Shown here in pieces: positions 10,747 through 30,720 of a stretch of DNA of 32,825 nt. Source of the DNA: Clostridiales bacterium (lineage in GTDB: Bacteria > Bacillota > Clostridia > Lachnospirales > Lachnospiraceae); assembly GCA_021204085.1 (NCBI GenBank), contig JAJPZY010000066.1:1-32825 (forward strand). Direction: 5' to 3'. Below the pieces are notes generated by a model. It saw only the letters and a list, made by a program, of their open reading frames with translations. It ran no database searches and was not told where the DNA came from. A program made the translations under genes and the position numbers. Every line of letters begins with the position of its first letter. Position 1 is the stretch's first letter.

Positions 10747-11014
10747 TTTTCATTCCCTCTTTTCCATATAATATTGTGATGATACCAGGGTCAAAATAAG
10801 TGAGATAAGAAATCTCTGATTTCTGTAATCGAACTTATGCAAAGCTGGTCATGAATGGAACGCTTGCGGTCCGATTCATGACTTTGGGGCCCGCCAAAAC
10901 ACGAAAAAGTAGCCATTTTAGCCGATTTTCAGGATAAAATGAGCGGATTTTGAGTGGTTTGAGGATTGCGAGAGTGGTTTTTACGGAGCAATCCGTGGTA
11001 TCATCGTCCGTAAA
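10747..11014. other. Intergenic element with nested dyads
   Basis: 268 bp without a gene. The outer inverted repeat GATGATACCA/TGGTATCATC (10778-10787, 10996-11005) encloses two hairpins: AGAAATC...GATTTCT near 10809-10825 and GTCATGAAT...ATTCATGAC at 10849-10883 (9-bp perfect outer stem). No T run follows the second hairpin, so it is not a standard terminator. Confidence 0.55.
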
Positions 11015-15168: not shown

Positions 15169-16689
15169 CTACTTCGTTTCATTCACATTGAACTCCGAAA
15201 TATAGTCCTTTGTCCAGTCCACATCCTCCGGTCCGAAATACTGGATCGTGCAGGCTTTCCGCTTGGTGAAGAACTCCAGCGCATCAGAAATCTGCGCCTT
15301 ATACTGGCCGCCCATAAGCGAACCCTTGGTACCGCCGAACGGCAGATACGGCATGGACGCCGGAACACCGATATTGACGCCGATCATACCGGAATTCGTA
15401 TTGATCAGGAAATCCTGCGCCACGATGCCGGACTCGGTAAAAATACTTCCGCCGTTTCCGTAGACCGATTCATTGATCAGATCGATGCCTTCCTTATAAC
15501 TTTTAACCTTGATGAGCGACACTACCGGACCGAAAACTTCTTCCTTCGCAATTTCAAAATCCTTTGTCACACCCTCAATGATGGTCGGTCCGACAAAGAA
15601 ACCGTTTTTATTTGCCTCCGGCAGCTTTTCCCGGATATTCCTTCCGTCCACGATAACCGTTCCGCCCTCCGCTTCCGCGCGCTCAATAAACCCGTGAATT
15701 CGCTTTACGGCAGCCTCTGAAATCACCGGCCCCATATACACGTTCAGATCGTTGGCGTCGCCGACGGCAGTCTCCTCAGCCGCGCGGATCATCGCAGCCT
15801 TTACGCTGTCATAGACCGTCTCCTCCACAACAACATTCGCCGCGGCCATGCACCGCTGTCCCGCCGCTCCGAAGCAGGCGTTTTTGAAATTTTTCACAAA
15901 GCCGGAGATATTCACGGACTGCTCCACGATCGCCGTATTTTTCGCACCGGCGAGGATCATAGATTTCTTATTGGTTTTCGCGCAGCCCTCCGCGATGATC
16001 TGTCCGACCTTCGAAGAGCCCACAAACGCCATCGCCGCAATATCCGGGCTTTCCAGCATCTGCGTCACCACCGGCGCGTCGCCGTTAACAAGGTTAAAAA
16101 CACCTGCCGGCAAATCCATCCGATCAAAGACATCCGCGATCGCCTGCATGAACATCGGGCTCTGCTCCGACGCCTTAAACACCATCGTATTGCCGGTCAC
16201 CAGAGCAAATGGAACAAACCACCCGCAGACCAGCGCCGGAAAGTTAAACGGCGCCAGCGCGCCAATCACGCCGATGGGCTCCCGGCGAATCTCCGCCTCC
16301 ACTCTCGTGCTGACCATGATCTTGTCTCCGCGCATAATCAGCGGAAATCCACAGCAGGTCTCCGTGGACTGAATGATGCGGTCCATCTCCGCAAGAGCAT
16401 CCGTGTAATGCTTGCCCTGGTCGGTGGCAATCAGCTTTGCAAACTCTTCCTTCCGCGCCACCAGCTCATTGCGGAACGTAAACATATACTGTACTTTCTG
16501 CGTCATCGGCACCTTCGACCATGTTTTAAACGCTTCTTTTGCGGAAGCAATCGCCGCTTCCATATGTGCTTCTGTCGTCACCGGCACCTGCGCGATCACG
16601 GCTCCGGTAGAGGGGTTCGTTACGTCCATGTATCTGCCGCCGGTATTCTCCGTCCAGGCACCGTTTATGTAATCTTTTAAAATCTGCAT
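15169..16689 (-). CDS. CoA-acylating methylmalonate-semialdehyde-type aldehyde dehydrogenase
   Basis: Aldehyde dehydrogenase superfamily enzyme of the MMSDH/IolA type, which converts malonate or methylmalonate semialdehyde to acetyl- or propionyl-CoA. It is 506 aa. The catalytic cysteine is Cys280 in GAAGQRCMAA. The general-base glutamate of hydrolytic relatives is replaced in the ILAGAKN segment (246-251), as in the CoA-acylating MMSDH group. The C-terminal PYLPFGGTKGS and GGQYKAQISDALEFFT blocks also fit. GGGAGG 7 bp upstream sets the start. It is the last gene of the pot-linked cluster, 135 bp below the aminotransferase. Malonate semialdehyde from beta-alanine is an attractive substrate, but another short semialdehyde is possible. 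Confidence 0.86.
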   Translation of the reverse strand: MQILKDYINGAWTENTGGRYMDVTNPSTGAVIAQVPVTTEAHMEAAIASAKEAFKTWSKVPMTQKVQYMFTFRNELVARKEEFAKLIATDQGKHYTDALAEMDRIIQSTETCCGFPLIMRGDKIMVSTRVEAEIRREPIGVIGALAPFNFPALVCGWFVPFALVTGNTMVFKASEQSPMFMQAIADVFDRMDLPAGVFNLVNGDAPVVTQMLESPDIAAMAFVGSSKVGQIIAEGCAKTNKKSMILAGAKNTAIVEQSVNISGFVKNFKNACFGAAGQRCMAAANVVVEETVYDSVKAAMIRAAEETAVGDANDLNVYMGPVISEAAVKRIHGFIERAEAEGGTVIVDGRNIREKLPEANKNGFFVGPTIIEGVTKDFEIAKEEVFGPVVSLIKVKSYKEGIDLINESVYGNGGSIFTESGIVAQDFLINTNSGMIGVNIGVPASMPYLPFGGTKGSLMGGQYKAQISDALEFFTKRKACTIQYFGPEDVDWTKDYISEFNVNETK

Positions 16690-16824
16690 GAGTTATCCTC
16701 CCGTTTTATGTAAGAAATAAGACTTTCACATTCCAACGCGAACACGTTGATTTTCTGTTCCGGAACTCCGTACTGTCTAAATATCATCTGCAATTATACG
16801 TGCCCGTTATGAAACATCTCCATG

Positions 16825-18156
16825 CTAAATTCCAAGAATCTCCGCATCCACAATCGCCAGCACTTCATCCATCTTCGCCATCTCTTCCCGCACCTGCTCC
16901 TCCGTGATAATCAGCGGCGGGCAGATCAGGACCATATTCTCATGGGAATACGTCATAAAGCGGCGCTCTTTCAGAAGCCCGATGATTTTGCCCATGATTC
17001 CATCCGGATCTTTGCCGTAAGGAACCATCGGCTCTTTTGTGGCTTTATCTCTTACCAACTCAATCGCGGAGAAAAGTCCGATATGACGAACCTGGCCGAC
17101 ACAGGCATACTTCTCCACATAACTGTCAAGGATTTCCGCCAGCACCGCGCCGGATTTTGCCACATTTTCCTCGATTCCCAGCTCTGCGTACTGGCCGACG
17201 CAGACCACGCCCGCCGCGCAGGCCAGCGGATGACCGCTGTAAGTCAGCCCGCAGGAGAGCACATTATCGTCAAAGTATGCCGCAATCTTCGAGGATACGA
17301 TCACACCACCAAGCGGCACATAACCGCAGGTCACGCCCTTGGCGAAGGTAACAATATCCGGCACCACATCAAAATTCATAAACGCAAAGGCTTTTCCGGT
17401 CCGGTACCATCCGGCCATTACCTCATCGCAGACCATCAGAATGCCATACTTATCGCAGAGTGCGCGGACGCCCGGGAGATAGCCTTTCGGCGGAATGATG
17501 ACCCCGTTGGACCCGGTAATCGTCTCCATCACGATCGCCGCAATCGTCTGCGGTCCCTCATACTGAATCTGCTCCTCCAGTTTTTTCAGATAAAACTCGG
17601 TCGCCGCTTCCTCCGAAGCAAATTCAACCGGCTCTCTGTAAATATACGGATCCATAAATTTCACAAATCCGGGAACGCCCGGCTCCAGCGCGTATCTTCT
17701 GGGCTCACCGGTCAGGTTGCCCGCACCGAAAGAGGATCCGTGGTAACTGCGGTAACGGCTGAAAATTTTATTTTTTCCGGTAAACATCCGTGCGATTTTC
17801 ACCGCATTCTCATTGGCGTCCGCCCCGGCATTCGTGAAAAAGACCTTGCCGAATCCCTCCGGCATCATACCGATGATCATTTCCGCAAGTTCGGCACGCA
17901 CGTCTGAACCGTAAGAAGGCCCGACAAAACAGTAGCGGTCCGCCTGCGCTTTGATTGCATCCGCGATCGCCTGATTCCCGAAACCGAGATTTAAGTTTAC
18001 CAGTTGTGCGGACATATCCGCATAACGGTTCCCATCATAATCATAAAAGTAAATGCCGTCCGCCTTTTCCACCGGCAGCGGATTGATGCCCGCCTGTTTG
18101 CTCCAGGACTGGAGCACGTATGTTTTCTGTTTCTCTGTAATCTGTTTTGCGTCCAT
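16825..18156 (-). CDS. Class III pyridoxal-phosphate omega-aminotransferase
   Basis: Fold-type I aminotransferase of the class III (omega-amino acid/amine:pyruvate) family. From the ATG at 18156 it has 443 aa; the ATG 6 bp earlier is too close to GGAGG. Lys273 in TFAKGVTCG is the Schiff-base lysine, and CDEVMAGW (243-250) carries the cofactor Asp244. TNAGADANENAVK and SYHGSSFGAGN bind phosphate. The N-terminal SWSKQAGINPLPV and SAQLVNLNLG segments resemble taurine- and beta-alanine:pyruvate aminotransferases. Its setting between two aldehyde dehydrogenases and a polyamine-type transporter suggests removal of a terminal amino group from an omega-amino acid or diamine. Taurine remains an alternative substrate. 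Confidence 0.88.
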   Translation of the reverse strand: MDAKQITEKQKTYVLQSWSKQAGINPLPVEKADGIYFYDYDGNRYADMSAQLVNLNLGFGNQAIADAIKAQADRYCFVGPSYGSDVRAELAEMIIGMMPEGFGKVFFTNAGADANENAVKIARMFTGKNKIFSRYRSYHGSSFGAGNLTGEPRRYALEPGVPGFVKFMDPYIYREPVEFASEEAATEFYLKKLEEQIQYEGPQTIAAIVMETITGSNGVIIPPKGYLPGVRALCDKYGILMVCDEVMAGWYRTGKAFAFMNFDVVPDIVTFAKGVTCGYVPLGGVIVSSKIAAYFDDNVLSCGLTYSGHPLACAAGVVCVGQYAELGIEENVAKSGAVLAEILDSYVEKYACVGQVRHIGLFSAIELVRDKATKEPMVPYGKDPDGIMGKIIGLLKERRFMTYSHENMVLICPPLIITEEQVREEMAKMDEVLAIVDAEILGI

Positions 18157-18213
18157 AATCATTGCCTCCCTGCTGTTTATTGTTTGCTCAATGAATCGGT
18201 TATTACGTAACTC

Positions 18214-19695
18214 TTACTTTTCATACCATCCGATCGGTCCGCTGTCCAATGCAATATTCACCTGCTTGGTCTCCATGTACTCATCCAGACCATTGGTTCC
18301 CAGTTCCCGGCCGAACCCGCTCATGCGGTAGCCGCCCCAGGGCGCTGCCGTATACGTAGGCTGGTTGCAGTTAATCCAGAGGATACCGGCGCGAATCTCC
18401 TTCATAACGCGAAGTGCTTTTGCGATATTCAGCGTGCAGACAGTTCCCGCCAGACCGTACTCTGTATCATTGGCCAGTTCGATGGCTTCCTCTTCCGTCC
18501 GGAAGGTACTGATACACGCCACCGGGCCGAAGATTTCTTCTTTCATGATCGTCATATTCTGTGTACAGTTGTCAAATATCGTAGGTTTGATATAAAATCC
18601 CTTCGCACACTCACCCTCCGTATAACGGTATCCGCCGGTCACAAGAGTTGCCCCCTCGCTCTTGCCGGCTTCAATGTAACGCAGGACTTTATTCATCTGT
18701 GCCTCGGAAACGACCGGTCCGATATCCGGATTGTCAAATCCGTTCCCGATGGTCATAGCTTCTGCCTTTTCCTTTAACCGGGCGACAAATTGATTGTGAA
18801 TACTCTCTTCCACGTAGATTCGCGCGCAGGCGGAGCAAACCTGTCCCTGATTAAAGAAGGTGCCCACCATCGCCCATTCCACGGCACCCTCCAGATCACA
18901 GTCCGCAAAAACAAGGTTCGGAGACTTTCCGCCAAGCTCGAGGCCGATCTTCTTCACATTCGCCACGGCATCCGACATAATGCTCTGCCCCACCGCGGTG
19001 GAGCCCGTAAAGGTCACCATATCCACATTCTTGCTCGCCGCCAGAATATGTCCGACATTCGCACCGGAACCCAGAACCAGATTGACGGAACCGGCCGGCA
19101 TTCCCGCCTCCTCAAAAATCTCGAATAGCCGTACTGCCGAGAGCGGGCAGTCCGAGCTGGGCTTAAAGATAATGCTGTTGCCCGCCGCGATGGCCGGCGC
19201 CAGCTTCCATGTCGCCATAAGCAGCGGATAATTCCACGGTGTGATCAATCCGCAAACGCCCACCGGCTCCTTGATCGTGTGGGTATACATGGGGCCAAAG
19301 CCATTCGGAACATCCATCGTGACGCCGCCGGGCGCCAGGATCATCCCGGCATAGTATCTGAAACAATGAATCGCGTCGTCCACATCCGCCTCTGATTCTC
19401 TGAGCGGTTTCCCGTTATCCATGGTATCCAGACGCGCCAGCTCGTCCTTATGCTTTTCCATCAGCGCCGCAATCTCAAGAATCTTATCCGCGCGCTCCTG
19501 CACATCCAGATCGCGCCATTCCCGCGTCTTATAAAACGACTTCTTTGCAGCCGCGATGGCCAGCTCGGTATCCTCCGGCGTACTGTCCGTCATCAGGCAG
19601 ATTACCTCCCCTGTCGCGGGGTTGATTACGTTGCGCGTCGCGCCGGACGCGGACGCCGTCCATGTACCGTTAATATAGTTTTGTTTCATCTCCAT
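18214..19695 (-). CDS. NAD(P)-dependent aldehyde dehydrogenase (aminoaldehyde/betaine-aldehyde type)
   Basis: Hydrolytic aldehyde dehydrogenase that oxidises an aldehyde to the acid. From the ATG at 19695 (GGAG 5 bp upstream) it has 493 aa; the longer frame runs back into potD without a ribosome site. Catalytic residues Glu253 (LELGGKSPN) and Cys287 (GQVCSA) are both present, along with the PWNYPL and FTGSTAVG cofactor segments. The C-terminal WGGYRMSGFGRELG is typical of the gamma-aminobutyraldehyde/betaine aldehyde group (PuuC, BetB). It starts 17 bp after potD, so it is co-transcribed with the transporter. A substrate such as 4-aminobutanal or 3-aminopropanal is inferred from context. Confidence 0.9.
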   Translation of the reverse strand: MEMKQNYINGTWTASASGATRNVINPATGEVICLMTDSTPEDTELAIAAAKKSFYKTREWRDLDVQERADKILEIAALMEKHKDELARLDTMDNGKPLRESEADVDDAIHCFRYYAGMILAPGGVTMDVPNGFGPMYTHTIKEPVGVCGLITPWNYPLLMATWKLAPAIAAGNSIIFKPSSDCPLSAVRLFEIFEEAGMPAGSVNLVLGSGANVGHILAASKNVDMVTFTGSTAVGQSIMSDAVANVKKIGLELGGKSPNLVFADCDLEGAVEWAMVGTFFNQGQVCSACARIYVEESIHNQFVARLKEKAEAMTIGNGFDNPDIGPVVSEAQMNKVLRYIEAGKSEGATLVTGGYRYTEGECAKGFYIKPTIFDNCTQNMTIMKEEIFGPVACISTFRTEEEAIELANDTEYGLAGTVCTLNIAKALRVMKEIRAGILWINCNQPTYTAAPWGGYRMSGFGRELGTNGLDEYMETKQVNIALDSGPIGWYEK

Positions 19696-19712
19696 AATGT
19701 CTCCATTTCCCT

Positions 19713-21308
19713 TTACTCGTACTGGTTTACTCTCACATACCGCTTCCGGCAGCACACTGCCACAACCACTCCCACGGCTGCGAGGATCGCTACCCAGACC
19801 GCCACCGGGTAATCGGAGAGATGGAAGCAGCGAATATTAATCCACATCTGATTCAATTCCGCCATTTTTTCAGTGGAAAAATACTCCATGATTGTCGCCC
19901 GCTCCAGCACATCTTCCGAAGGGTACTGGGCGAAAATCTGACGGGAAGCTTCCTCCTCATCGACCAGAACAATGTAATCCTCATCTTCGTTATCGCCGCT
20001 GAAATAGTAACCCAGAGGATATTCCACGACATCCTCCTCGTCCTCCGAGGCATAACACCAGTTTGCATAATCAAACATGGTCGTATCATCCTCATTTCCG
20101 GCGATTACGGAAGTGTAACCGATGTAATACATATTCCGCACGGCGTTTTCCGGCATGGAGATAAAGTTGACAAACGCTTCGGCTGCCTGCTGTTTCTCGG
20201 TATCATCACCGATGCCGTCCTTTAGCATCACCCAGCCATCCATCCATATATTGGTGCACTCTTCAGGAACCGCAAATTCCAGGTAAACATCATCCTCCTC
20301 TGCCTGATCCATGGAATACACCGTGTCGCCGGACCACTGATAGTTGCCGACAATCTTCCCAGCCACAATATCCGCTTTTCCGCTGTCCGTCTCAAACGAA
20401 TAGGCGTTCCGGCTGATTTCCGTCAGAACTTCCTCGACACCGGCAATTGTCTCCGTACTGACGTCGTTCATCTCCTCCTGCAAACGCTCGCTGTAATCCT
20501 CCGACTGCGTAAACTCATCGGAAGTCAGCAGATCTCTTTTATAAATAGAGAGCGCCATGAAATAGGAATCTCTGGAACTGTCTTTAATACTGATCTGCTT
20601 ATTGTAATCGTCATTTAACAGGATTGTAAGCGAGCTCATCTCCTCCGCAGAAACTTCTTCCGGATCATAAACCATGCCGGTAATGCCCCACATATAGCCC
20701 GCAGCATATTTACTCCAGGGTTCACCGTTGATCTCGTTACTGTCATAAATGTCTTTAATAAAAGGGGACACATTGTTGATATAATAATTCGTCTCAACGG
20801 AGGTATCAAAAAACTCATCCGAATACTCCAGAACCTTATCCTCCGCGATCAACTTCATAAACATATAATCGGAAGGGCATACCAGATCAAACTCATTGCC
20901 CAGACCCATCAGCGTATAAAGTTCCTCGTTGGTTCCAAAGGTAGAGTATTCCACTTTCACCTTTTTCCCGTATGTCTCGTAATACCACGCTTCAAAATCC
21001 TCGATCATACTGTTTTCACCGAGAACCGTCACGCCGTTATCCAGGTCGATGGCTTCCTCCTCATCCCAGTCGCCCTCATCAATATATTCTTCCCAGTTAC
21101 TGATGCGCAGGACGATCGTTTCATCGTCAGCACCTGATTCTTCCGCCGTTTCAGAAGCTCCGGAAACCTCTTCGACAGAAGCAGCCTCTATCGCACCCGT
21201 CACTCCGTCATCATCCGCTGCCGCAGCCGGAACTGTCATACTGCTTCCTGCCGCAGTAAACAAAAAACAGCCCGCCGCTAATATTGCAAGTATTCTTCTG
21301 CCTCTCAT
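19713..21308 (-). CDS. potD: PotD-like polyamine-binding protein with a C-terminal membrane anchor
   Basis: Extracellular substrate-binding protein of a spermidine/putrescine-type ABC importer. The start at 21308 overlaps the potC stop (ATGA). Of 531 aa, residues about 1-30 are a signal peptide, 35-65 an acidic Ser/Glu/Ala linker, and the rest a family-1 binding domain (ISNWEEYID, EYSTFGTNEELYT, FDLVCPSDYMF, YAAGYMWGITGMVYD). Unusually, the end carries a hydrophobic helix (about 500-518) followed by a basic tail, so the protein is probably anchored at its C-terminus rather than by lipid. PotD proteins are normally about 350 aa; acidic inserts near 430-470 add length. The true ligand cannot be fixed from sequence. 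Confidence 0.88.
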   Translation of the reverse strand: MRGRRILAILAAGCFLFTAAGSSMTVPAAAADDDGVTGAIEAASVEEVSGASETAEESGADDETIVLRISNWEEYIDEGDWDEEEAIDLDNGVTVLGENSMIEDFEAWYYETYGKKVKVEYSTFGTNEELYTLMGLGNEFDLVCPSDYMFMKLIAEDKVLEYSDEFFDTSVETNYYINNVSPFIKDIYDSNEINGEPWSKYAAGYMWGITGMVYDPEEVSAEEMSSLTILLNDDYNKQISIKDSSRDSYFMALSIYKRDLLTSDEFTQSEDYSERLQEEMNDVSTETIAGVEEVLTEISRNAYSFETDSGKADIVAGKIVGNYQWSGDTVYSMDQAEEDDVYLEFAVPEECTNIWMDGWVMLKDGIGDDTEKQQAAEAFVNFISMPENAVRNMYYIGYTSVIAGNEDDTTMFDYANWCYASEDEEDVVEYPLGYYFSGDNEDEDYIVLVDEEEASRQIFAQYPSEDVLERATIMEYFSTEKMAELNQMWINIRCFHLSDYPVAVWVAILAAVGVVVAVCCRKRYVRVNQYE

Positions 21309-22114
21309 CCCTGCGTCACCGTCCCTTCTTCTTTTTTCGCTGCGGAACGGTTCATGCCCACGACCACTAGAATCACAATCACAAAAATAATGGTGGACAG
21401 TGCCCACAGCGCTGTCTTGATACTGGTCTGCGCACCCCTCGTCGCGTTTACCACGTAGGTGCTGATCGTATCAAAGGTTGACGGTTTCGTGTATGTGGCG
21501 ATGAAATAATCATCCAAAGCCAATGTAATTGAAAGCATAAATCCGGAAACGATGCCCGGCATAATCTGCGGAATCAGTACCTTGCGCAGTGCATAGAACG
21601 GGCGTGCGCCCAGATCCAGAGCCGCCTCATAGAGATTATCATCCATCTGCTTTAATTTCGGAATCACCGACAGATAGACGAACGGCGAACACAAGACCAC
21701 ATAACCAACCACGATGGGGATAAATGTATCCCGGCTGATTCCCAACACAACGACCAGCAGAATACAGATGGAAAAACCGGTCACAACCTCCGCGTTGACC
21801 ACCGGGATCTGGTTGATTGTCCGGATTACCGCCGCCGGTCCTTTTTTCGAATAGTAAGCGCCGATGGCGCCCAGCGTCCCGAGTACGGTCGAGATCGCAG
21901 ATGTCACCACAGCAAGAATGACCGTCCCGCGAATCATCACCAGCAATTCCTCCGAAGTGAACAGAGTGATATAGTTCTGGAGGGAAAAGGCATGAATTCT
22001 ACCGATCTGTGCCGAATCCGTAAAACTGTACACCGCAAGAATCAGAATCGGCAGATAAATAAAGCAAAGCACCAGCGCCAGAAAAATGGTCTGTCCGTAT
22101 TTCTTCTTATTCAA
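21305..22114 (-). CDS. potC: Polyamine-type ABC transporter permease PotC
   Basis: Inner-membrane permease of the MetI/BPD superfamily, 269 aa with about six transmembrane helices. The EAA loop that docks the ATPase is EAALDLGARPFYALRKVLIP (near 164-183). Its ATG overlaps the potB stop (ATGA) and its TGA overlaps the potD start, showing translational coupling. The gene order potA-B-C-D is the standard one. Confidence 0.94.
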   Translation of the reverse strand: MNKKKYGQTIFLALVLCFIYLPILILAVYSFTDSAQIGRIHAFSLQNYITLFTSEELLVMIRGTVILAVVTSAISTVLGTLGAIGAYYSKKGPAAVIRTINQIPVVNAEVVTGFSICILLVVVLGISRDTFIPIVVGYVVLCSPFVYLSVIPKLKQMDDNLYEAALDLGARPFYALRKVLIPQIMPGIVSGFMLSITLALDDYFIATYTKPSTFDTISTYVVNATRGAQTSIKTALWALSTIIFVIVILVVVGMNRSAAKKEEGTVTQG

Positions 22115-22911
22115 AAGATCGCGCCTCCTCTCTCAGAAGCCTCCGCGTCGCCATACCTGTTCAGGCATCCGGAAACGATAAAGATGATGGCCAGCAGCAC
22201 CAGCGAGATCATGGAACCGTTGTTCCAGTTTTCCACGTTGAAATAGCTGCCAATCAGGCTGCCCATGATATAGGTGCTGTTGTACAGCATATCAAGAACG
22301 ACATAGTTGGTCATCGCCGGCAGAAATACCATCATCACACCGCTGATGATACCCGGCACAGACAAAGGCAGCGCCACCTTGAAAAAACACTGCCGCGGCG
22401 TTGCGCCCAGATCCGCCGCCGCTTCCATCACTCCGTCATCCAGCTTTGCCAGCTGGTTATAAATCGGGAGAATCATAAACGGCAGAAAATCATACGTCAT
22501 TCCGATGATCGTGTTGACCATGGGGAAAAACGCCATATTTCCCTCGATCGCCGTCAACACCTCTTTCATCGCCGTGATGCGCAGGGTAAAGTTAATCCAC
22601 ATCGGCATCACAAAAATCATAATCAGAGAAGTGCTCTGCTTCCATTTCCCTCTCGCCAGAATAAAAGCCGTCGGATAGGCAATCAGCAGACAGACCAGCG
22701 TCGTCAGCACGGAAATGATCGCACTGTACACCAGCGTGCCTATAGTATTCCGGTTTGTGAAAAAATCCATCAGATTCTGCAGGGAAAACTGCCCGCTTCC
22801 GTTAGTAAAGGCGTAATATACGATCACCACCAGCGGCGCAACCACAAACAGCAGAAGAAAGATCAGATATGGGATTCCCAGCTGTTTTCTGGAAAAACCG
22901 GCTCTTTTCAT
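22111..22911 (-). CDS. potB: Polyamine-type ABC transporter permease PotB
   Basis: First inner-membrane permease of the importer, 266 aa and about six transmembrane helices. The N-terminal helix follows a short basic leader. The EAA loop reads MEAAADLGATPRQCFFKVAL, followed by PLSVPGI. It lies 18 bp after potA and overlaps potC by 4 bp. It should pair with PotC to form the channel energised by PotA. Confidence 0.94.
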   Translation of the reverse strand: MKRAGFSRKQLGIPYLIFLLLFVVAPLVVIVYYAFTNGSGQFSLQNLMDFFTNRNTIGTLVYSAIISVLTTLVCLLIAYPTAFILARGKWKQSTSLIMIFVMPMWINFTLRITAMKEVLTAIEGNMAFFPMVNTIIGMTYDFLPFMILPIYNQLAKLDDGVMEAAADLGATPRQCFFKVALPLSVPGIISGVMMVFLPAMTNYVVLDMLYNSTYIMGSLIGSYFNVENWNNGSMISLVLLAIIFIVSGCLNRYGDAEASERGGAIF

Positions 22912-22929
22912 GGTTACAGTCCCTCCCCT

Positions 22930-24363
22930 CTACTTTTTCAGTTCCACCTGAATTCCGCCTGCGTCCACGCTGACGCTGACGCGGTCGTCCATGTTCCACA
23001 GATCCGGATCGTCCACAACAAAATCTTCCTCATCGTCTGTCCGGACAATATACTGATAATGGTCACCCTTATAGAGCAGCTGGATGATATTTCCGACGGC
23101 AATCCCGCTCTCCAGATCATCGCTCATATGAATATGCTGCGGTTCCACCGAAGCGATGACATGAATCTTCTCCGGCGTCACCTCCTCGCCCTTGCTGTCA
23201 CGAAGTCTTCCATTCTTAATCGCGGATCCCGGATAGAGAGAAGTTATGTCAACGTCCACCGGCATACCGAAGAAATCAACTTTATATTCATCGGTCACCG
23301 TACACTCATATTTGTTGCGCATCACATCCACCGGCATGACATGGATCCCGTCCGGCTCAATCTCGATGCCCACCGCGCTCCCCGGTTTCACACTCTTTGT
23401 CGTCTGAATGACCACCTCATTTTTCCCGGAAAGCACCGTAATCTCATAGTGGATACCCTTGAAAATCACAGAATCTACCACGCCCCGGATTTTTCCCGCG
23501 GACGGTTCCGTGATGATGACATCCTCCGGACGCACCACGACGTCCACCGGCGTACCCTCCTCATAAGGATCCAGACAGACAAAATCCGCGCCGCAGAAAC
23601 GGACGACCTTATCCCCGGTCATAATTCCACTGTAGAGATTGCTCTCGCCGATGAAATCCGCCACAAATGCGTTCATCGGCTCGTTATAAATCTCCTCCGG
23701 CGTGCCCACCTGCTGAATCTCACCATCGGACATCACGACGATCTTATCCGACATCGTCAGGGCTTCCTCCTGGTCATGCGTCACATAGATAAAAGTAATG
23801 CCCAGCTTCTGATGCATTTCTTTCAGCTCCAGCTGCATCTCTTTTCTCATTTTCAGATCAAGCGCGCCGAGCGGCTCATCCAAAAGCAAAATCTCCGGCT
23901 CATTGACCAGCGCACGGGCGATCGCAATCCTCTGCTGCTGTCCGCCGGAAAGTGTCGTGACTTTGCGCTTTTCAAAGCCTTCCAGATCTACCATTTCCAG
24001 AACCCTGCGTACTTTTTTTATAATCTCAGCCTTCGGCAGTTTTTTCAGCTTAAGACCGAAAGAAATATTCTCAAACACATCCAGATGTGTGAAAAGCGCA
24101 TAGCGCTGAAACACCGTATTGATCGGGCGCTGGTACGGCGGAAGCATGCTGATGTCTTGCCCATTCAGCAAAATTGTCCCTTTCGTAGGCAGTTCGAAAC
24201 CCGCGATCATGCGCAGCGTCGTCGTCTTGCCGCAGCCGGAAGGTCCCAGGAAGGTGACAAACTCACCCTTTTTCACTTCCAGATTAAAATCCTCCACAGC
24301 AACAAAGTCTCCGAACGCCTTGGTGACATGCTTCAGTTCCACCATGATGTCCTTTTTTTCCAT
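22930..24363 (-). CDS. potA: Polyamine-type ABC transporter ATP-binding protein PotA, C-terminally extended
   Basis: ATPase of the importer, on the cytoplasmic face. From the ATG at 24363 (GGGAGG 7 bp upstream; the TTG start 15 bp earlier is rejected) it has 477 aa. Walker A is GPSGCGKTT (40-48), followed by the Q-loop NTVFQRYALF, signature LSGGQQQR, Walker B ILLLDEPLGALD and H-loop YVTHDQ. A TOBE regulatory domain begins near residue 285 (VVVRPEDVII). The family norm is about 350-380 aa; the extra 100 residues (from about 375) contain another beta-rich segment (VIASVEPQHI, IIQLLYKGDHYQYIV) that looks like a second TOBE domain. This could sense ligand or metabolite, but that is speculative. 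Confidence 0.95.
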   Translation of the reverse strand: MEKKDIMVELKHVTKAFGDFVAVEDFNLEVKKGEFVTFLGPSGCGKTTTLRMIAGFELPTKGTILLNGQDISMLPPYQRPINTVFQRYALFTHLDVFENISFGLKLKKLPKAEIIKKVRRVLEMVDLEGFEKRKVTTLSGGQQQRIAIARALVNEPEILLLDEPLGALDLKMRKEMQLELKEMHQKLGITFIYVTHDQEEALTMSDKIVVMSDGEIQQVGTPEEIYNEPMNAFVADFIGESNLYSGIMTGDKVVRFCGADFVCLDPYEEGTPVDVVVRPEDVIITEPSAGKIRGVVDSVIFKGIHYEITVLSGKNEVVIQTTKSVKPGSAVGIEIEPDGIHVMPVDVMRNKYECTVTDEYKVDFFGMPVDVDITSLYPGSAIKNGRLRDSKGEEVTPEKIHVIASVEPQHIHMSDDLESGIAVGNIIQLLYKGDHYQYIVRTDDEEDFVVDDPDLWNMDDRVSVSVDAGGIQVELKK

Positions 24364-24556
24364 CTGTTTTCCTCCCAAATGTTAGTTTTGCACTTTCGAA
24401 ACCAGATTTTTTCTCTCATCCGTACGCTTTCAAAAGTGACTGAATTATCTCCCTCTTTTCTCAGTATCAGGCATTTGATTCATGACTTTTTGTCCTCTGG
24501 TGCTTACAGATAATGATATCTGCGGATTGCTCCGTGCTACGCACCCCCCAGAATCC

Positions 24557-25828
24557 TCAAATCATCTCTTCAAGGATCGCCTCTTCCGCCAGCTTCTCCG
24601 CGTAGGGCGAATCCTTCTCCTGAATGCCTGCCGGGAATCCGTAAACCGCCATCTTCTCCACGAACGGATCCGGGTCGAAGGTCTCCGGACCGCAGACGCC
24701 GCTGCCGCTCCAGATGCCGTTTGCGATCAGATCCAGCATCACCACCGGGCCGACCGCTGTCTGCGCGACAACAGAATTCGTGCCGTATTTCGCGAGGCAT
24801 TCCTGATTATCCGCCACCTGATACAGATAAACCGAGCGGTCAAGGCCGTCTTTTTTGCCCGTCACCCAGGTGCCGGCGCATCCCTTTCCGACCATCACCT
24901 TTGACGTCTCCAGCGGCGACGGTGCTACTTTTACCAGAAAATCACGCGGTGCAATCTCGGAATCCCCGACTTTAATCTTCATTGTAGCATCCGCCATGCC
25001 GAGGGCTTCCAGATTCTTCAGCATCGTCCGAAACTCCGGCGTTACCCCATACTTAAATGTCACGCGGTTGCAGTCGATCACACGCGGGACCAGTAATACC
25101 TCCTCATGCTCGACGTTAATGACTTCCACATCGCCGATCCCTCCCGGGAAACAGAAAACCTCCGGCTCGGAGAAATTCTCCGTCGTAAACCAGCCCCGCT
25201 CCTTTTCCCAGATAATCGGCGGATTTAAGCACTCCTCGATCGTTGTCCAGACGGAAAATCCGAACGAGACATCCACCCCCGGAACTTCATAGTTATCACC
25301 ATCCCGGACATTGATCTCGTCAATCTCGTCAAACATATGCTTCGACGCGTATTTTGCAAAAACGTCCGCCACGCCGGGCTCCACGCCGGATCCAACCAGC
25401 GCCAGCAGGCCTTTTTCCTTCCACTGATCATAACGGTCAAACTGATAATCGCCCAGCTTGATATACGGCAGCTCAAACGGTTTCTCCGGATGGCGTTTCG
25501 ACAGCGTCATCGCGCAGTCCATGTAACCGACGCCTGCCTCATACGCCGCGTCAAAGATCGTCTCATTAAAATTCGGCGCAACCAGATTCAGGATAAAATC
25601 GCAGTCATACTTTTTTACCATAGCGATAATCGCCGCACCGTCCGCGGCGTTAATCTGCTCCGCGATAAACCGCGGCTGCCCTGCCAGAGCCACAACTTCC
25701 TGCGCCCGCGCAAGATCGTAATCCGCTACGACCATCTGCTCCAGCCATTTTGCTCCGCTCGGCTCCGATTTGATCAACATTACCGCTGACTGTCCGACTC
25801 CGCCTGCTCCGATCATTAAAAGTTTCAT
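24557..25828 (-). CDS. Saccharopine-dehydrogenase-fold oxidoreductase, carboxy(nor)spermidine-dehydrogenase-like
   Basis: NAD(P)-dependent oxidoreductase of the saccharopine dehydrogenase-like family, 423 aa. The Rossmann motif GAGGVG is at residues 7-12; LNLVAPNFNETIFDAAYEAGVGYMD-type segments (described by position, about 80-103) follow the family. The blocks GSGVEPGVADVFAKY, MFDEIDEINVRDGD, GTWVTGKKDG and FDPDPFVEKM resemble those I recall in carboxynorspermidine/carboxyspermidine dehydrogenases, which act on imines formed between aminoaldehydes and diamines. No carboxyspermidine decarboxylase gene accompanies it. AAGGAGG and a near-consensus promoter lie upstream; the pot genes follow after 193 bp. 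Saccharopine or lysine metabolism is the alternative role. Confidence 0.82.
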   Translation of the reverse strand: MKLLMIGAGGVGQSAVMLIKSEPSGAKWLEQMVVADYDLARAQEVVALAGQPRFIAEQINAADGAAIIAMVKKYDCDFILNLVAPNFNETIFDAAYEAGVGYMDCAMTLSKRHPEKPFELPYIKLGDYQFDRYDQWKEKGLLALVGSGVEPGVADVFAKYASKHMFDEIDEINVRDGDNYEVPGVDVSFGFSVWTTIEECLNPPIIWEKERGWFTTENFSEPEVFCFPGGIGDVEVINVEHEEVLLVPRVIDCNRVTFKYGVTPEFRTMLKNLEALGMADATMKIKVGDSEIAPRDFLVKVAPSPLETSKVMVGKGCAGTWVTGKKDGLDRSVYLYQVADNQECLAKYGTNSVVAQTAVGPVVMLDLIANGIWSGSGVCGPETFDPDPFVEKMAVYGFPAGIQEKDSPYAEKLAEEAILEEMI

Positions 25829-25895
25829 GGTAACATCCTCCTTGCAAACATGCGCGGGAATCTGTCTGCCATATGCTCAAAAGTGAATAATAACC

Positions 25896-25924
25896 ATTAT
25901 ACACACATGACAGAAAAATTCCAA
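25896..25924 (-). promoter_or_regulatory. Sigma-A promoter of the oxidoreductase-pot operon
   Basis: TTGGAA (25919-25924), 17-bp spacer, perfect TATAAT (25896-25901) preceded by TGTG, about 70 bp before the start codon. It lies just after the terminator of the previous gene. Confidence 0.85.
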
Positions 25925-25941
25925 TTGTTAACGTTTATGTA

Positions 25942-25992
25942 CAAAAAAGAGAGCAATGATTTCCTTCTCATCGGGAACACCATTGCTCTCTT
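25942..25992 (-). terminator. Terminator after the second saccharopine-dehydrogenase-like gene
   Basis: AAGAGAGCAATG (25981-25992 arm on the minus strand) pairs perfectly over 12 bp with 25947-25958 across a 22-nt loop and is followed by TTTTTT. It separates this gene from the next operon. Confidence 0.85.
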
Positions 25993-26019
25993 CTTTTATC
26001 TGAATCTATATGGTTTTAA

Positions 26020-27258
26020 TTATAATTTTACAAATGTCTTTACTTCTACCTCCAGCCGGATATCCAGTTCCTTCGCCATCTTCAGATACTCATCGACTTC
26101 GTCAAAAGTCAGCATATCGGAGGACAGCAGCCCGACCTGGTCATAGTGCCCGCGGACAAACATTTTGGTAAATAGTGCCCCGCACTGGCCGGTCAAATAC
26201 ATCTCGCCGGTGATTCCGGCCCGCTCAAAGGACTCCCTGCAGCCGGGCGAGTACACGTAGGTCTCCACCATTACATCCTGTCCGTCCTTCTTCTCCGTGG
26301 ACTCTACCACAAAAGCGCCCTCGTCCTTTACCAGCCCCTCGTCGAGAATCTCTTTAATCTCCTCGCGATACTTCGGCGCCGGAGGCAAATGCTCCAGAAC
26401 TACATCAAACGGAACAAAGGTATGCCCGTGGAACGTCTCCTCTTCTCTGGATAAAAGTCCCGCACGGTACAGCGGAGTAGCAAACTCAACGCCGACGCCG
26501 CCATACTTGAAATTGATGTTTTTCGCTCCCTTAAAATGCGTATCCTTATTGATACCCATATAGACCGGCTCGTCGTGTGCGTGCTCCACCAGCTTTACGT
26601 CGTTGGCGCAGCCCTTGAACTTCCGGTATACCGGCAGCGAATGCGGCTCCGTCTCGACAATCACGCCATCCTTCAAGGCAAATGTTGGATCTGTCATATC
26701 CGACAGCGCCGTAAACGGCGACCACCAAAACGGCAGAAAGCGCTTCGCCTCAACGCCCTCATACACCATCATCAGGATATCATCGCAGGTATCCAGATAA
26801 CGCATGGAGTTGCGCGCCGCCACACACATCAGCCCCGGCGCAGAACCGGTGCCGATAATCGCCAGCTTCCCGATCGCCTCAAACCGATGTCCGTAATTGT
26901 CATACAGCATCTGTATGCACTTCGGCCACCAGGGATCCAGCACATCCGTCGCGGCAAAATCCTGATAATTGCACTTCACCGCCAGCGCGGCCTCCAGCAC
27001 ATTCGGCGCGAATCGGATCGGCAGCGCATTCACAATCAGGTCAACGCCCTCGGCCGCCTCAATGATGCTGTCCACATCATTCGCGTCCACATAAAGTCCT
27101 TTCGCTTTTTTCAGGATTTTTACCAGCTCATCCACGGCCTTGTGATCCGTGTCCGCACAGCGGATTTCTGTTACTTCGGGTTCCTCATCCATTCTCTCTG
27201 CTACTGTAGTGCCCTGTGCTCCGGTTCCCAGAACCAGAATCTTTTTCACCTTATTCAT
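26020..27258 (-). CDS. Saccharopine-dehydrogenase-fold oxidoreductase, second paralogue
   Basis: A second family member, 412 aa, only distantly similar to its neighbour. The Rossmann motif is GTGAQG (residues 11-16), followed by an acidic cofactor residue in RCADTD and by VDLIVNALP. The mid-region carries GTGSAPGLMCVAARN, equivalent to the G-S/G-x-P-G block of the neighbour, and a Trp-rich segment (FLPFWWSPF). AAGGAG precedes the ATG. Its leader contains a short ORF with a good ribosome site (27320-27385). A terminator downstream makes it a separate unit between araC and the pot operon. Its substrate is unknown; lysine-, saccharopine- or polyamine-type imines are the family choices. Confidence 0.8.
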   Translation of the reverse strand: MNKVKKILVLGTGAQGTTVAERMDEEPEVTEIRCADTDHKAVDELVKILKKAKGLYVDANDVDSIIEAAEGVDLIVNALPIRFAPNVLEAALAVKCNYQDFAATDVLDPWWPKCIQMLYDNYGHRFEAIGKLAIIGTGSAPGLMCVAARNSMRYLDTCDDILMMVYEGVEAKRFLPFWWSPFTALSDMTDPTFALKDGVIVETEPHSLPVYRKFKGCANDVKLVEHAHDEPVYMGINKDTHFKGAKNINFKYGGVGVEFATPLYRAGLLSREEETFHGHTFVPFDVVLEHLPPAPKYREEIKEILDEGLVKDEGAFVVESTEKKDGQDVMVETYVYSPGCRESFERAGITGEMYLTGQCGALFTKMFVRGHYDQVGLLSSDMLTFDEVDEYLKMAKELDIRLEVEVKTFVKL

Positions 27259-27268
27259 GATAATCTCC

Positions 27269-27310
27269 TTATTTACTCGTATTGATTACAATCGGTAGTA
27301 ACTGGTTCAT
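27269..27310 (-). CDS. Possible 13-aa leader ORF overlapping the next ribosome site
   Basis: ATG at 27310 to TAA at 27269 encodes MNQLLPIVINTSK. Its stop codon merges with the ribosome site of the oxidoreductase gene (TAAGGAG), which would permit coupling. It lacks its own ribosome site, so translation is doubtful. Confidence 0.25.
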   Translation of the reverse strand: MNQLLPIVINTSK

Positions 27311-27319
27311 ATCAGAGCG

Positions 27320-27385
27320 TTAGATGCCTTCCAGATAGAGTGACATAAAAAATACCAGTTTTAAAGGTAGATCTGAGCCATCCAT
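27320..27385 (-). CDS. Possible 21-aa leader peptide
   Basis: ATG at 27385 to TAA at 27320, preceded by AGAGGTG 5 bp upstream, a strong ribosome site. The peptide starts MDGSDLPLKLVFF and ends SLYLEGI. It lies between the candidate promoter and the oxidoreductase start, a layout typical of regulatory leader peptides. No obvious run of one regulatory amino acid is present. Confidence 0.5.
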   Translation of the reverse strand: MDGSDLPLKLVFFMSLYLEGI

Positions 27386-27420
27386 TCTTTCACCTCTTTT
27401 CGATACCGGATATATTTTAT

Positions 27421-27450
27421 ATGATACACGAATATCTCCGTGCTTTGCAA
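27421..27450 (-). promoter_or_regulatory. Candidate promoter of the second oxidoreductase gene
   Basis: TTGCAA (27445-27450), 18-bp spacer, TATCAT (27421-27426). It is placed about 35 bp before the leader ORF. Confidence 0.5.
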
Positions 27451-27463
27451 GTAATTATGTTTT

Positions 27464-27562
27464 CTCAGGATGTGTCAGATGATATCAATATATTTACAAT
27501 GCAACTTTGTAGGGGCGCTTTTAGCTGAGGCGAAATCCAGCGCTTACGGAGACTTAGGCTCG
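27464..27562 (-). repeat. Dispersed repeat, copy 2
   Basis: Aligns with 4594-4699 along its whole length, strongest at 27509-27549. It lies immediately after araC and just upstream of the oxidoreductase promoter. Confidence 0.75.
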
Positions 27563-27577
27563 AAGGCTAACCATTTT

Positions 27578-28639
27578 TTACAGCCGGCTCATCAGGCGCA
27601 TCCTCTGATTAATCAGCGACACGCGCTGCAGCTCCCCCTCCACTTCCGTCAGGTTTTTATAACTAAGCTTATCTTCAATCTCCTGCATAAAAATCTTCCG
27701 ATATTCCCTCGGCGAACAGTGATGCCATTTCTTAAAGTATACCGTAAAAATCTTCACATTGGAAAACCCGCAGAGCTCGGCGATTTCCGCCATTGTTTTG
27801 TTCGTCGTCAAAAGCAGACGCTCTGCAATGTTGGCCCTGTAGTAAAACAGAATTTCTTTAAAACTCAGGCCCGATTTCCGCAAAAACTCGGAAAGATAGG
27901 ATTCCGTCAGATGAAATTCCCTGCTTAAGTCACTCAGCGTAACATGCTCCGTCGGGCGTTCTCTGATGTAAGAACTGATCTCATGATACCGCGCAATGTA
28001 ATTTTCACTGAAATCTGCATTGTCTGACCAGTAAAATAAAGCATCAAATTTATTTACCATAAACAGGAGAAGCGTATCCGCCATATGACAGAGGGTCGTT
28101 TTTTGCTCTTCCGATATTTCTTTGCAGTAAACACCTGTTTCTGAAACTGCGCCGCCCGGCAAACCTGATTCTGTCTTCGCCGGTTCCCTGCCGATCTCAA
28201 GCGAACTCTCTTTCCTGAATCCGGTCTTGGAAACATCTGCCTCAATCTCCATCAGGTATGACAAAATTCCCAGAATCATGCCCTGTACATTGATGTGCGC
28301 CAGCGTCGGATAAGAAGAACTCTTCCCGCCGGCAAATCCCTCCAGAATAAACTCACAATTTCGATATACCGGATATTTTTCATAAAAAGGATCCAATTTC
28401 AAATAAAGGGAAACCGTCAGATTCTCTTTCCCGTCATGCAGATCGTACGCGTCGCTGTCCACGGAGATGAATTCTCCCTCCCGAATCAGCGTGTCTTCAT
28501 ATCCGTCAAAAAACTTAATCTCACCGCGCAGGCAGAGAATAATCTCCAGCACATTTTCCGGAAGCAGAGTAAAACGTGACTCTGCTTCATAAACACTATA
28601 TCCGATTGGAGTATCCGACACCCAGTTAATCTTCTGCAT
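27578..28639 (-). CDS. AraC-family transcriptional regulator
   Basis: DNA-binding regulator, 353 aa. The N-terminal half (about 1-110) looks like a cupin-type ligand-sensing domain (LPENVLEIILCLRGEIKFF). Residues about 145-175 are a variable linker, and about 245-340 form the two helix-turn-helix motifs of the AraC family (HVTLSDLSREFHLTESYLSE; MAEIAELCGFSNVKIFTVYF followed by HHCSPREYRK). GGAGGAAG precedes the ATG. It is the first gene upstream of the oxidoreductase and pot genes and is their likely regulator. Its leader contains an attenuator-like structure. The inducer is unknown; a polyamine or amino acid fits the context. Confidence 0.88.
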   Translation of the reverse strand: MQKINWVSDTPIGYSVYEAESRFTLLPENVLEIILCLRGEIKFFDGYEDTLIREGEFISVDSDAYDLHDGKENLTVSLYLKLDPFYEKYPVYRNCEFILEGFAGGKSSSYPTLAHINVQGMILGILSYLMEIEADVSKTGFRKESSLEIGREPAKTESGLPGGAVSETGVYCKEISEEQKTTLCHMADTLLLFMVNKFDALFYWSDNADFSENYIARYHEISSYIRERPTEHVTLSDLSREFHLTESYLSEFLRKSGLSFKEILFYYRANIAERLLLTTNKTMAEIAELCGFSNVKIFTVYFKKWHHCSPREYRKIFMQEIEDKLSYKNLTEVEGELQRVSLINQRMRLMSRL

Positions 28640-28964: not shown

Positions 28965-30548
28965 TTATACCACAACCTCGACAAGTTCGCGGTCTCCTAC
29001 TATAATGCGTTTCAATCCGATCTGCTTCTTTTTATTAAAATTAAAACTCAGCATATATCCCTTTTGCAAATGATAGTAATCCATGTACTCCAATAATTGG
29101 TTCTCCCCGCGCCGATTGTATTCCTGACCATGAAAAATCTTCATCTCGAGAACAAACTGCTCTCCCTTATAATCAATGATCACATCCGTCCGCTTCATAT
29201 TGCGCGTTCTGGCTTCAATATAATAATTGCCGCTTCCGTTTATAATCGGCTTCAGATAAATCAGAAAAATCCTTCTTCCATTATCCTCGATGAATTTGTC
29301 GTCCACATCCGCATAAATATCTTCAAAATACTCACAGAATTTCCGCAATACCAGTTCCATTTGAAGATGACCGCCTATAATAAACTGGTTTTTTTCCATA
29401 TCCGCTGTCGAAAAAATTCGGTTGTTCATTTCATCTTCGGAAAGGAAAAGATTATACAGCTTGGTCTCAAAAATACGATTTGCTACGGCCACAGAGCCAT
29501 TCCGTTCTTTCAGAAAACCAAACATTACACCGATACGAATACGCTCATTTTCCGCTTCATACGCATATTTTTCACCCTGAAACAAAATACTGTAAATCAT
29601 CTCTTTCAGATTCGGATTATCGTTGAGTTTTTTGCTCATATCGTCAAAAAGCGTGTTTGGTTCCTTTAAAATTCTGCTGATTGCTTTCTGAATTGCTTCC
29701 TCATTCCAGGCATCCTTTTTTTCCTGCTCCGTGCAGTTATCCTCTATTCTTTCCGCAAGAATCTGACATAATCTGGACACAAGGAACGGATAACCGGAAG
29801 TGTAATCATATAAAAGCTGACTGACCTTTTCTATATTCATACCGGTATGCCAGTCTTCTTCATACTGGTTGAGCATAGACACAATATCTTTTGGGGAAAA
29901 ACTCATGTCTATTTTAAAATCCGCAGCAATGTTCCATGGACTATTATACTTTGATTCCTGCCCCGGGTGAATCTTCTGTTTTAAATTTTTAATGTCATAC
30001 ACACCCGCAAGAATAACAGACCAGAATGTCGTATCTTTTCCCGCCATGCGGTTCAGGTATTTTGTGCGCAACAGACCAAGAAAGGCGAGGAACAACTGAT
30101 TATCAGAACTCTTATCCACCTCATCAATCATCAAAATCACCTTTTTGCTGCTTGTTTGACACAAGAGGGTAATTTTTTCATCCAGGTCCATCATCGGAAA
30201 TTCTTCCGAAACAGGCTTTTCCCACTCCGATAAGATGTCTTCTTCCACTCCCTGCCTGCGCAAATTTGTTGCTATCATTCTGACAAATCCCTCAGCCAAC
30301 GTCTGTTTCGATGTAAAGAAATCATCCGCGGCCTCAAAGCTCAGACTCAGTACAAGGTAATCCTGCTTTAACTTCTCTTCCAACATAAACAGCATCGTCG
30401 TTTTTCCATACTGCCTCGCACGGTTGATTGTAAAATACATACCCGGCTCGATATAATCGCTTACGATTTGCTGCACCCGCCCGCTTAAATCTACCATATA
30501 ATGCAGTTTAGGAACACAAAGACCCGTGACTGTAAATGTTTTTTGCAT
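28965..30548 (-). CDS. AAA-ATPase-like protein with C-terminal PD-(D/E)XK nuclease-like domain
   Basis: Resembles the widespread but poorly characterised family of AAA-like ATPases joined to a PDDEXK nuclease-like domain, found in Firmicutes and Bacteroidetes. The 527-aa product starts at the ATG at 30548 (GAGGAG upstream; a GTG 18 bp earlier is rejected). Walker A is RARQYGKTTML (Gly48-Lys49-Thr50) and Walker B is VILMIDEVDKS (near 138). The C-terminal nuclease-like signature is DVIIDYKGEQFVLEMKIF with Asp and Glu-x-Lys. Base composition is visibly more AT-rich than the pot genes, which suits acquisition by transfer. A defence or mobile-element role has been suggested for related families but is not shown here. 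Confidence 0.8.
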   Translation of the reverse strand: MQKTFTVTGLCVPKLHYMVDLSGRVQQIVSDYIEPGMYFTINRARQYGKTTMLFMLEEKLKQDYLVLSLSFEAADDFFTSKQTLAEGFVRMIATNLRRQGVEEDILSEWEKPVSEEFPMMDLDEKITLLCQTSSKKVILMIDEVDKSSDNQLFLAFLGLLRTKYLNRMAGKDTTFWSVILAGVYDIKNLKQKIHPGQESKYNSPWNIAADFKIDMSFSPKDIVSMLNQYEEDWHTGMNIEKVSQLLYDYTSGYPFLVSRLCQILAERIEDNCTEQEKKDAWNEEAIQKAISRILKEPNTLFDDMSKKLNDNPNLKEMIYSILFQGEKYAYEAENERIRIGVMFGFLKERNGSVAVANRIFETKLYNLFLSEDEMNNRIFSTADMEKNQFIIGGHLQMELVLRKFCEYFEDIYADVDDKFIEDNGRRIFLIYLKPIINGSGNYYIEARTRNMKRTDVIIDYKGEQFVLEMKIFHGQEYNRRGENQLLEYMDYYHLQKGYMLSFNFNKKKQIGLKRIIVGDRELVEVVV

Positions 30549-30720
30549 GAATATCTCCTCTCTCACAGAGCATCCCCGACGTCCACCTGTTACCGGAACT
30601 TTCTTTAAGAATCTGATATTATAAAATTAACTCTGATACCAGTTTATAACATTCTAACTTTCACTTCAACAAAAATCATAAATATCCTCCGAAATGCTGC
30701 CGTCGTCTGATATAAAAAGG

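Follow-up and report, generated by a model that had tools for sequence, protein, structure and literature searches.

The window analysed here is a stretch of 32,825 nucleotides from a Clostridiales bacterium of the family Lachnospiraceae (assembly GCA_021204085.1, contig JAJPZY010000066.1, one of the contigs of a 2.93 Mb genome that is 94.7% complete), and our subject is a gene cluster at 15169-28639 that may serve the oxygen-free catabolism of polyamines. The interval is filled by ten open reading frames (ORFs), all on the minus strand, whose families were assigned by Pfam and NCBIfam profile matches. At its upstream end lies the gene of an AraC-family regulator, araC (27578..28639; HTH_18, 65.1 bits; 75% in two congeners), followed by the genes of two oxidoreductases of the saccharopine dehydrogenase (SDH) fold: SDH1 (26020..27258), a predicted NAD-linked secondary-amine dehydrogenase, and SDH2 (24557..25828), sister to carboxyspermidine dehydrogenase (CASDH). 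Then come the four genes of a polyamine-type ABC transporter, namely potA for the ATPase (22930..24378, with a likely start at ATG 24363; TIGR01187, 374.2 bits against a cut-off of 355.6), the permease genes potB (22111..22911; BPD_transp_1, top NCBIfam match spermidine/putrescine permease) and potC (21305..22114; top NCBIfam match PotC, 141.3 bits), and potD for the substrate-binding protein (19713..21407, with a likely start at ATG 21308 that overlaps the potC stop; SBP_bac_6); both permeases and PotD score under the NCBIfam cut-offs. The row ends with an aldehyde dehydrogenase (ALDH) of the betaine-aldehyde/aminoaldehyde type (18214..19695; Aldedh, 575.9 bits), a class III omega-aminotransferase (16825..18162; PRK06062, 536.5 bits against a cut-off of 472) and an MMSDH/IolA-like CoA-acylating semialdehyde dehydrogenase (15169..16689), whose top NCBIfam family, TIGR01722, is matched below its cut-off (407.7 bits against 448.5).

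The original prediction, made from the letters alone, had named these families for ten genes on one strand, and the ORF list and profile matches confirm all of them, as they do the tight spacing claimed for pot: there is a 4-bp overlap at both potB/potC and potC/potD, and the distance from potD to the ALDH gene is 17 bp. Spacing is wider at araC/SDH1 (319 bp), SDH1/SDH2 (191 bp), SDH2/potA (193 bp) and aminotransferase/MMSDH (135 bp), and promoter-like matches, which are consensus hits only, lie upstream of SDH2 and of the MMSDH-like gene. With gaps of up to 319 bp, a single ten-gene transcript is not established.

The two SDH-fold proteins are only about 23% identical to each other, and their predicted models both resemble CASDH in overall fold. 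For each, the sole NCBIfam match at E <= 1e-10 is the carboxynorspermidine synthase family NF043000, at 162.1 (SDH1) and 48.8 (SDH2) against a cut-off of 800, a value that the ordinary CASDH of a congener, genome G549, also misses (399.7). SDH2 aligns over nearly its full length with CASDH-group structures at 25-30% identity and forms a separate, supported clade. The CASDH positions His228 and Glu230 are retained in all 32 alignment rows; the triad His228-Glu229-Glu230 reads HEE in 9/9 SDH2 rows and HDE in 11 of the 12 SDH1 rows (HEE in the remaining one), the HDE variant being present in 2/6 CASDH rows as well. The cofactor site differs: the NADP motif Ser34-Arg35-Thr36-Lys39 is whole in 6/6 CASDH rows, in none of the nine SDH2 rows and in none of the twelve SDH1 rows. 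Its serine is replaced in SDH1 and SDH2 by aspartate, the usual sign of NAD use at that position. Arg187, present in 6/6 CASDH rows, gives way to Glu in 9/9 rows of SDH2, while SDH1 varies there among Ser, Ala, Gln and Glu. Thr36 and Lys39 of BfCASDH are among the residues that bind the NADP phosphate, and the enzyme shows no turnover with NADH (PMC10413350). Among the enzymes of this fold, then, a polyamine enzyme, CASDH, comes closest to both SDH1 and SDH2, and their residues at the decisive position are of the NAD type and not of the NADP type, which supports the fold family proposed for them at the outset.

The genomes give little sign of the biosynthetic setting in which CASDH is usually met. 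The gene nspC (TIGR01047) was detected in one of the 20 genomes of the genus, our own included; this is G549, where the ordinary CASDH adjoins a spermidine synthase gene and an Orn/Lys/Arg decarboxylase gene. It is absent from all three genomes that carry SDH2, the source genome among them (92-95% complete). The source genome holds no PF16653 gene besides SDH1 and SDH2, and its single PF02784 gene is best matched by lysA (272.2 against a cut-off of 297.9). The gene set is not that of the usual CASDH/nspC biosynthesis. Of five CASDH loci fetched from plasmids, four lie beside nspC; the exception is a Parabacteroides locus.

The genes around the SDH pair point to uptake and oxidation. PotABCD has the make-up of an importer, with an ATPase over its TIGR01187 cut-off, two permeases and a binding protein near PotD/PotF structures, and its ligand is predicted from the closest solved relatives of PotD, which are polyamine-binding proteins (4eqb, E 6e-17; 4gl0; 7xjm; 3ttl). 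The C-terminal end of PotD (19713-21308) looks membrane-spanning and its ligand-binding part is preceded by an acidic stretch, and PotA (22930-24363) extends by about 130 residues past its best TOBE match. The closest solved chains of the ALDH are betaine-aldehyde and aminoaldehyde dehydrogenases. That of the MMSDH-like protein is IolA (1t90, E 6e-120), and the alignment matches two arginines, in GRG and ERCM, as well as the cysteine of RCM; we take the two IolA arginines to be the carboxylate-binding ones. On a Thermus plasmid, a relative of the aminotransferase (44%) is encoded by a gene overlapping an MMSDH gene. By their families, the three downstream enzymes fit a path from an aminoaldehyde through an omega-amino acid and a malonate-type semialdehyde to an acyl-CoA; conversion of beta-alanine through malonate semialdehyde to acetyl-CoA fits, and other omega-amino acids are also possible.

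Gene-order conservation in other genomes, proposed as a check on the prediction, was found in full in two congeners, G556 and G557, which carry the identical ten-gene order at 72-97% identity (loci L086 and L087). Between the window and L086, dN/dS ranges from 0.019 to 0.085 for nine genes (araC not computed), so the nine are under purifying selection; together with the shared order, these values argue that the cluster is more than a chance assembly. The cluster is, then, conserved and catabolic in appearance. SDH2 itself occurs at about 93% in 2/19 other genomes of the genus, a further match at 30% identity being the ordinary CASDH; among 391 genomes of the class (E <= 1e-60) it was found in its own genome only, and a scan of viral contigs for SDH2 relatives gave six pattern matches, of which none was a true relative.

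Named strains that carry SDH1 are Clostridium sp. ASF356 and Anaerovorax odorimutans SL.3.17. Among the SDH1 loci, the commonest neighbouring family is an APC permease (20 loci); of the 50 loci whose upstream part exceeds 1500 bases, 15 have it directly ahead of SDH1, at 6-342 bp. Among twenty SDH1-neighbour proteins that were scanned, which include UvrB, a DNA polymerase IV-type protein, a cation efflux protein and an FAD/NAD oxidoreductase, no enzyme of a pathway was recognised as recurrent. Two SDH1 copies (about 81%) occur in A. odorimutans SL.3.17 (L008 and L009), one of them directly behind an APC permease, and a Spirochaetales metagenome-assembled genome has two convergent SDH1-type genes (L014, 5637-8115), 59% and 46% identical to SDH1 of the window.

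Relatives in actinobacteria and haloarchaea were sought in plasmid records only. Among the 40 matches listed out of 115, at least 13 plasmid records of actinobacteria hold SDH2-type proteins of 49-52% identity. An APC-type permease lies nearby in 4/6 of the loci inspected (L063, L065, L066 and, truncated, L062) and was not seen in the other two: L064 has transporters of the LysE and MFS families as well as an ornithine decarboxylase near SDH2, and in the unannotated L061 a gene of dihydroxy-acid dehydratase type adjoins SDH2 among the six ORFs scanned. In the Mycobacterium locus among the four with a permease, the genes adjoining SDH2 encode an aminobutyraldehyde dehydrogenase (731.3 against a cut-off of 615) and an aminotransferase; on a Mycobacterium ulcerans plasmid (L062, 11302-13426), the truncated amino acid permease follows SDH2 and a transposase gene lies further on.

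More distant SDH-like genes were followed at eight loci picked from 21 records. By annotation, an ALDH gene is adjacent in 6/8 (as a fragment in L093) and a pot-type transporter is present in 4/8. In two rhizobia (L098, L099) and in Haladaptatus salinisoli (L095), an ALDH gene adjoins the SDH-like gene and a pot-type transporter lies in the vicinity; both are also present in Natribaculum luteum (L094), together with an MMSDH over its cut-off. The annotated row of L094 (2779-8642) reads PotD, PotA, aldehyde ferredoxin oxidoreductase, ALDH, SDH-like protein and MMSDH, and in N. longum (L096, 8544-14642) the ORFs match L094 in size and order, a likeness of layout only. An SDH-ALDH pair lies near an ABC transporter in Terrarubrum (L097), a split SDH-like gene lies beside an aminotransferase gene and the ALDH fragment in Haladaptatus halobius (L093), and neither ALDH nor transporter was seen near the SDH-like gene of Streptomyces (L100). 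Partly alike gene sets are thus met elsewhere too, in a Mycobacterium plasmid locus, in rhizobia and in haloarchaea. What argues most strongly for a functional association, in our view, is that an importer, an SDH and an ALDH recur together in separate SDH lineages; this recurrence leaves the substrate unfixed.

In the remainder of the source genome, another contig (C3) carries an AbfD-type 4-hydroxybutyryl-CoA dehydratase (815 bits to 1u8v) together with a CoA-transferase; further downstream (L082, 6019-10708) lie genes of the AMP-binding, LuxE and LuxC families. Dehydratase-family (PF03241) matches occur in 7/20 genomes of the genus, with a co-occurrence of 3/3 genomes that have SDH2 against 4/17 that do not, numbers that are small and take no account of relatedness. 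A search of the whole genome for FAD amine oxidases (PF01593) gave three short partial matches and none of full length, in agreement with their claimed absence. Next to the cluster lies a gene for an anaerobic ribonucleotide reductase (12629-14806), which is consistent with an anaerobic host. The window also holds a full-length Clostridiales-1 RNA (RF01699, 80.6 bits) at 10835-11003 on the plus strand and, adjoining the cluster at 28965-30566 on the minus strand, a 533-aa ORF with an AAA-like domain (AAA_35, 45.4 bits).

For the substrate, the bond cut, the order and direction of the steps, the cofactor and the reason for two SDH enzymes, we infer the following scheme. PotABCD would import a polyamine, and SDH1 and/or SDH2 would run with NAD+, in the oxidative direction, the type of step that CASDH runs reductively: the secondary amine would become an imine and be hydrolysed, so that the aminopropyl arm leaves as 3-aminopropanal and a diamine such as putrescine is left. 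The ALDH would turn 3-aminopropanal into beta-alanine and thereby pull the unfavourable SDH step, the class III aminotransferase would convert beta-alanine into malonate semialdehyde, and the MMSDH-like enzyme would release acetyl-CoA and CO2. The C4 half may exit the cell or enter a gamma-aminobutyrate (GABA)/4-hydroxybutyrate route through the dehydratase encoded elsewhere in the genome. The two SDH enzymes would perhaps act on spermine and spermidine, or on two arms.

Not all parts of the scheme are equally firm. That the cluster performs an NAD-linked cleavage of some secondary amine seems to us quite probable; for a plain polyamine as the molecule cleaved, the case is about evenly balanced, and we would give even odds that the cluster is catabolic for spermidine-type polyamines without oxygen. 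More tentative, and somewhat short of even, is the broader proposal that the CASDH relatives comprise several NAD-linked, oxygen-independent polyamine-cleaving lineages (SDH1, SDH2, rhizobial and haloarchaeal), which often have an importer of pot or APC type as a partner and in several instances ALDHs. In the lineage of the window, two of these SDH enzymes would on this proposal feed a complete route from the aminopropyl arm of spermidine to acetyl-CoA, an oxygen-free fermentation of polyamines so far undescribed for Clostridia. The route first proposed stands in part: CASDH-like SDH enzymes with NAD-type residues are present and the downstream enzymes fit, while its substrate, the bond that is cleaved and the part played by the two SDH enzymes stay on the side of inference. 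Spermidine use has been reported in marine bacteria without the known spdH gene (PMC8437039), so spermidine routes of an unknown kind exist.

Several observations weigh against a polyamine pathway of this form. Where CASDH has Lys39, SDH2 stays basic with an Arg in 9/9 rows, which makes NAD use only a prediction. In the congener G555 (L004), potABCD comes about 40 bp behind SDH1, with no SDH2, ALDH or aminotransferase match nearby, and no MMSDH match was found in that genome at 1e-60. Of 56 SDH1 loci, some of them short and all taken from a pattern scan that favours close relatives, only L005 and L006 have an ALDH or a true SDH2 match in the neighbourhood; taken with the partial set of G555, this means that SDH1 need not belong to the proposed pathway. 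SDH1 is also rare, being found in its own genome only among 150 genomes of the family (1e-20) and among 398 of the phylum (1e-60). Finally, a PF01564 search of the source genome returned one fused MFS/spermidine-synthase-like protein, and with AdoMet decarboxylase not searched for, own spermidine synthesis is possible.

The alternative that keeps most ground would have SDH1, and perhaps the whole cluster, cut a secondary amine that bears a carboxylate (polyamine acids of putreanine or isoputreanine type, opines, N-carboxyalkyl lysines) through an NAD-linked oxidation that gives an amine and a semialdehyde. In its putreanine version, the aminotransferase and ALDH would oxidise the terminal amine of spermidine, after which SDH1 would yield malonate semialdehyde directly for the MMSDH-like enzyme. 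Lys172-Arg173 of SDH1, invariant in 42/42 rows, could hold a carboxylate and would be odd for a purely cationic substrate; the permease so often directly before SDH1 is of the amino acid type, and pot-type transporters also serve other amines. Against these stand the Glu of SDH2 at the position of CASDH Arg187, the closeness of PotD to polyamine binders and the APC permease of L053, whose best NCBIfam match, although far under its cut-off (99.4 against 409.05), is a basic amino acid/polyamine antiporter. On balance we hold a carboxylated substrate to be a minor but serious possibility, and rather unlikely.

Lysine catabolism, in which the ALDH would oxidise aminoadipate semialdehyde and one SDH would be a saccharopine dehydrogenase or L-lysine 6-dehydrogenase, is highly improbable here. 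A saccharopine dehydrogenase of a Rhizobium strain has been linked to lysine degradation (PMC7198800), and the rhizobial SDH sets could possibly serve lysine; yet in comparisons of the predicted models the best CASDH structure leads by 5.2 Z units for SDH1 and 11.5 for SDH2, piperidine-6-carboxylate dehydrogenase is not among the best 25 NCBIfam matches listed for the ALDH, whose top matches are of the betaine-aldehyde/aminoaldehyde kind, and the MMSDH-like enzyme would be left unexplained. Assimilation of nitrogen from taurine or beta-alanine, with accessory SDH enzymes, would account for the closest solved chain of the aminotransferase, taurine:2-oxoglutarate aminotransferase (6jix, E 1.7e-159), a match that counts against the polyamine route. 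Taurine clusters described in PMC6616044 combine Toa with sulfoacetaldehyde reductase or, in the IsfD type, include the TauABC transporter; the ten genes, to which the search was confined, include neither the reductase nor TauABC, and the arginines that the MMSDH-like enzyme aligns to those of IolA also speak against this highly improbable explanation. Least probable is that SDH2, for all its identity to CASDH-group structures, shared fold and His-Glu-Glu motif, is an ordinary biosynthetic CASDH lying near uptake genes by chance: a simple CASDH annotation is rejected on the strength of the cofactor motif and the Arg187 position, both replaced in 9/9 SDH2 rows, of the separate clade and of the missing nspC, and the true CASDH of G549 keeps company with biosynthetic genes.

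Host physiology responds to the amounts of polyamines in the gut, and far more has been described of how microbes make polyamines than of how they degrade them in the absence of oxygen. Should our preferred reading, a spermidine-type polyamine catabolism, hold, some proteins labelled “saccharopine dehydrogenase” may be polyamine catabolic enzymes, and the SDH1 strains named above, as well as small gene sets, would become available for tests of anaerobic polyamine breakdown. Among the papers listed in literature searches, which mostly did not reach subscription journals, none describes catabolic SDH-fold polyamine enzymes.

Among known systems, the taurine:2-oxoglutarate aminotransferase cluster of Bifidobacterium kashiwanohense provides the closest solved relative of the aminotransferase and differs in that our ten genes include neither a sulfoacetaldehyde reductase nor TauABC. 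GABA/4-hydroxybutyrate fermentation (AbfD, 1u8v) shares the dehydratase and CoA-transferase present in the same genome, although these genes lie on another contig and their link to the cluster is a presumed one. Homospermidine synthase is alike in fold, and its chemistry cleaves and remakes secondary amines; NAD is bound in the solved entries listed for it and is predicted for SDH1 and SDH2. CASDH (BfCASDH, 8deb; HpCASDH, 8h52) is alike in fold over nearly the whole chain and in His228, Glu230 and Glu188 (or Asp), and unlike in its NADP motif, in Arg187, in its companion nspC and in lacking a setting of uptake and oxidation genes. In Pseudomonas aeruginosa, the polyamine is opened, after glutamylation, by an oxygen-linked oxidase, and bauABCD provides the same functional trio of aldehyde dehydrogenase, beta-alanine aminotransferase and malonate-semialdehyde dehydrogenase, a likeness of function; in our cluster, the place of the glutamylation/oxidase opening is occupied by the two SDH enzymes.

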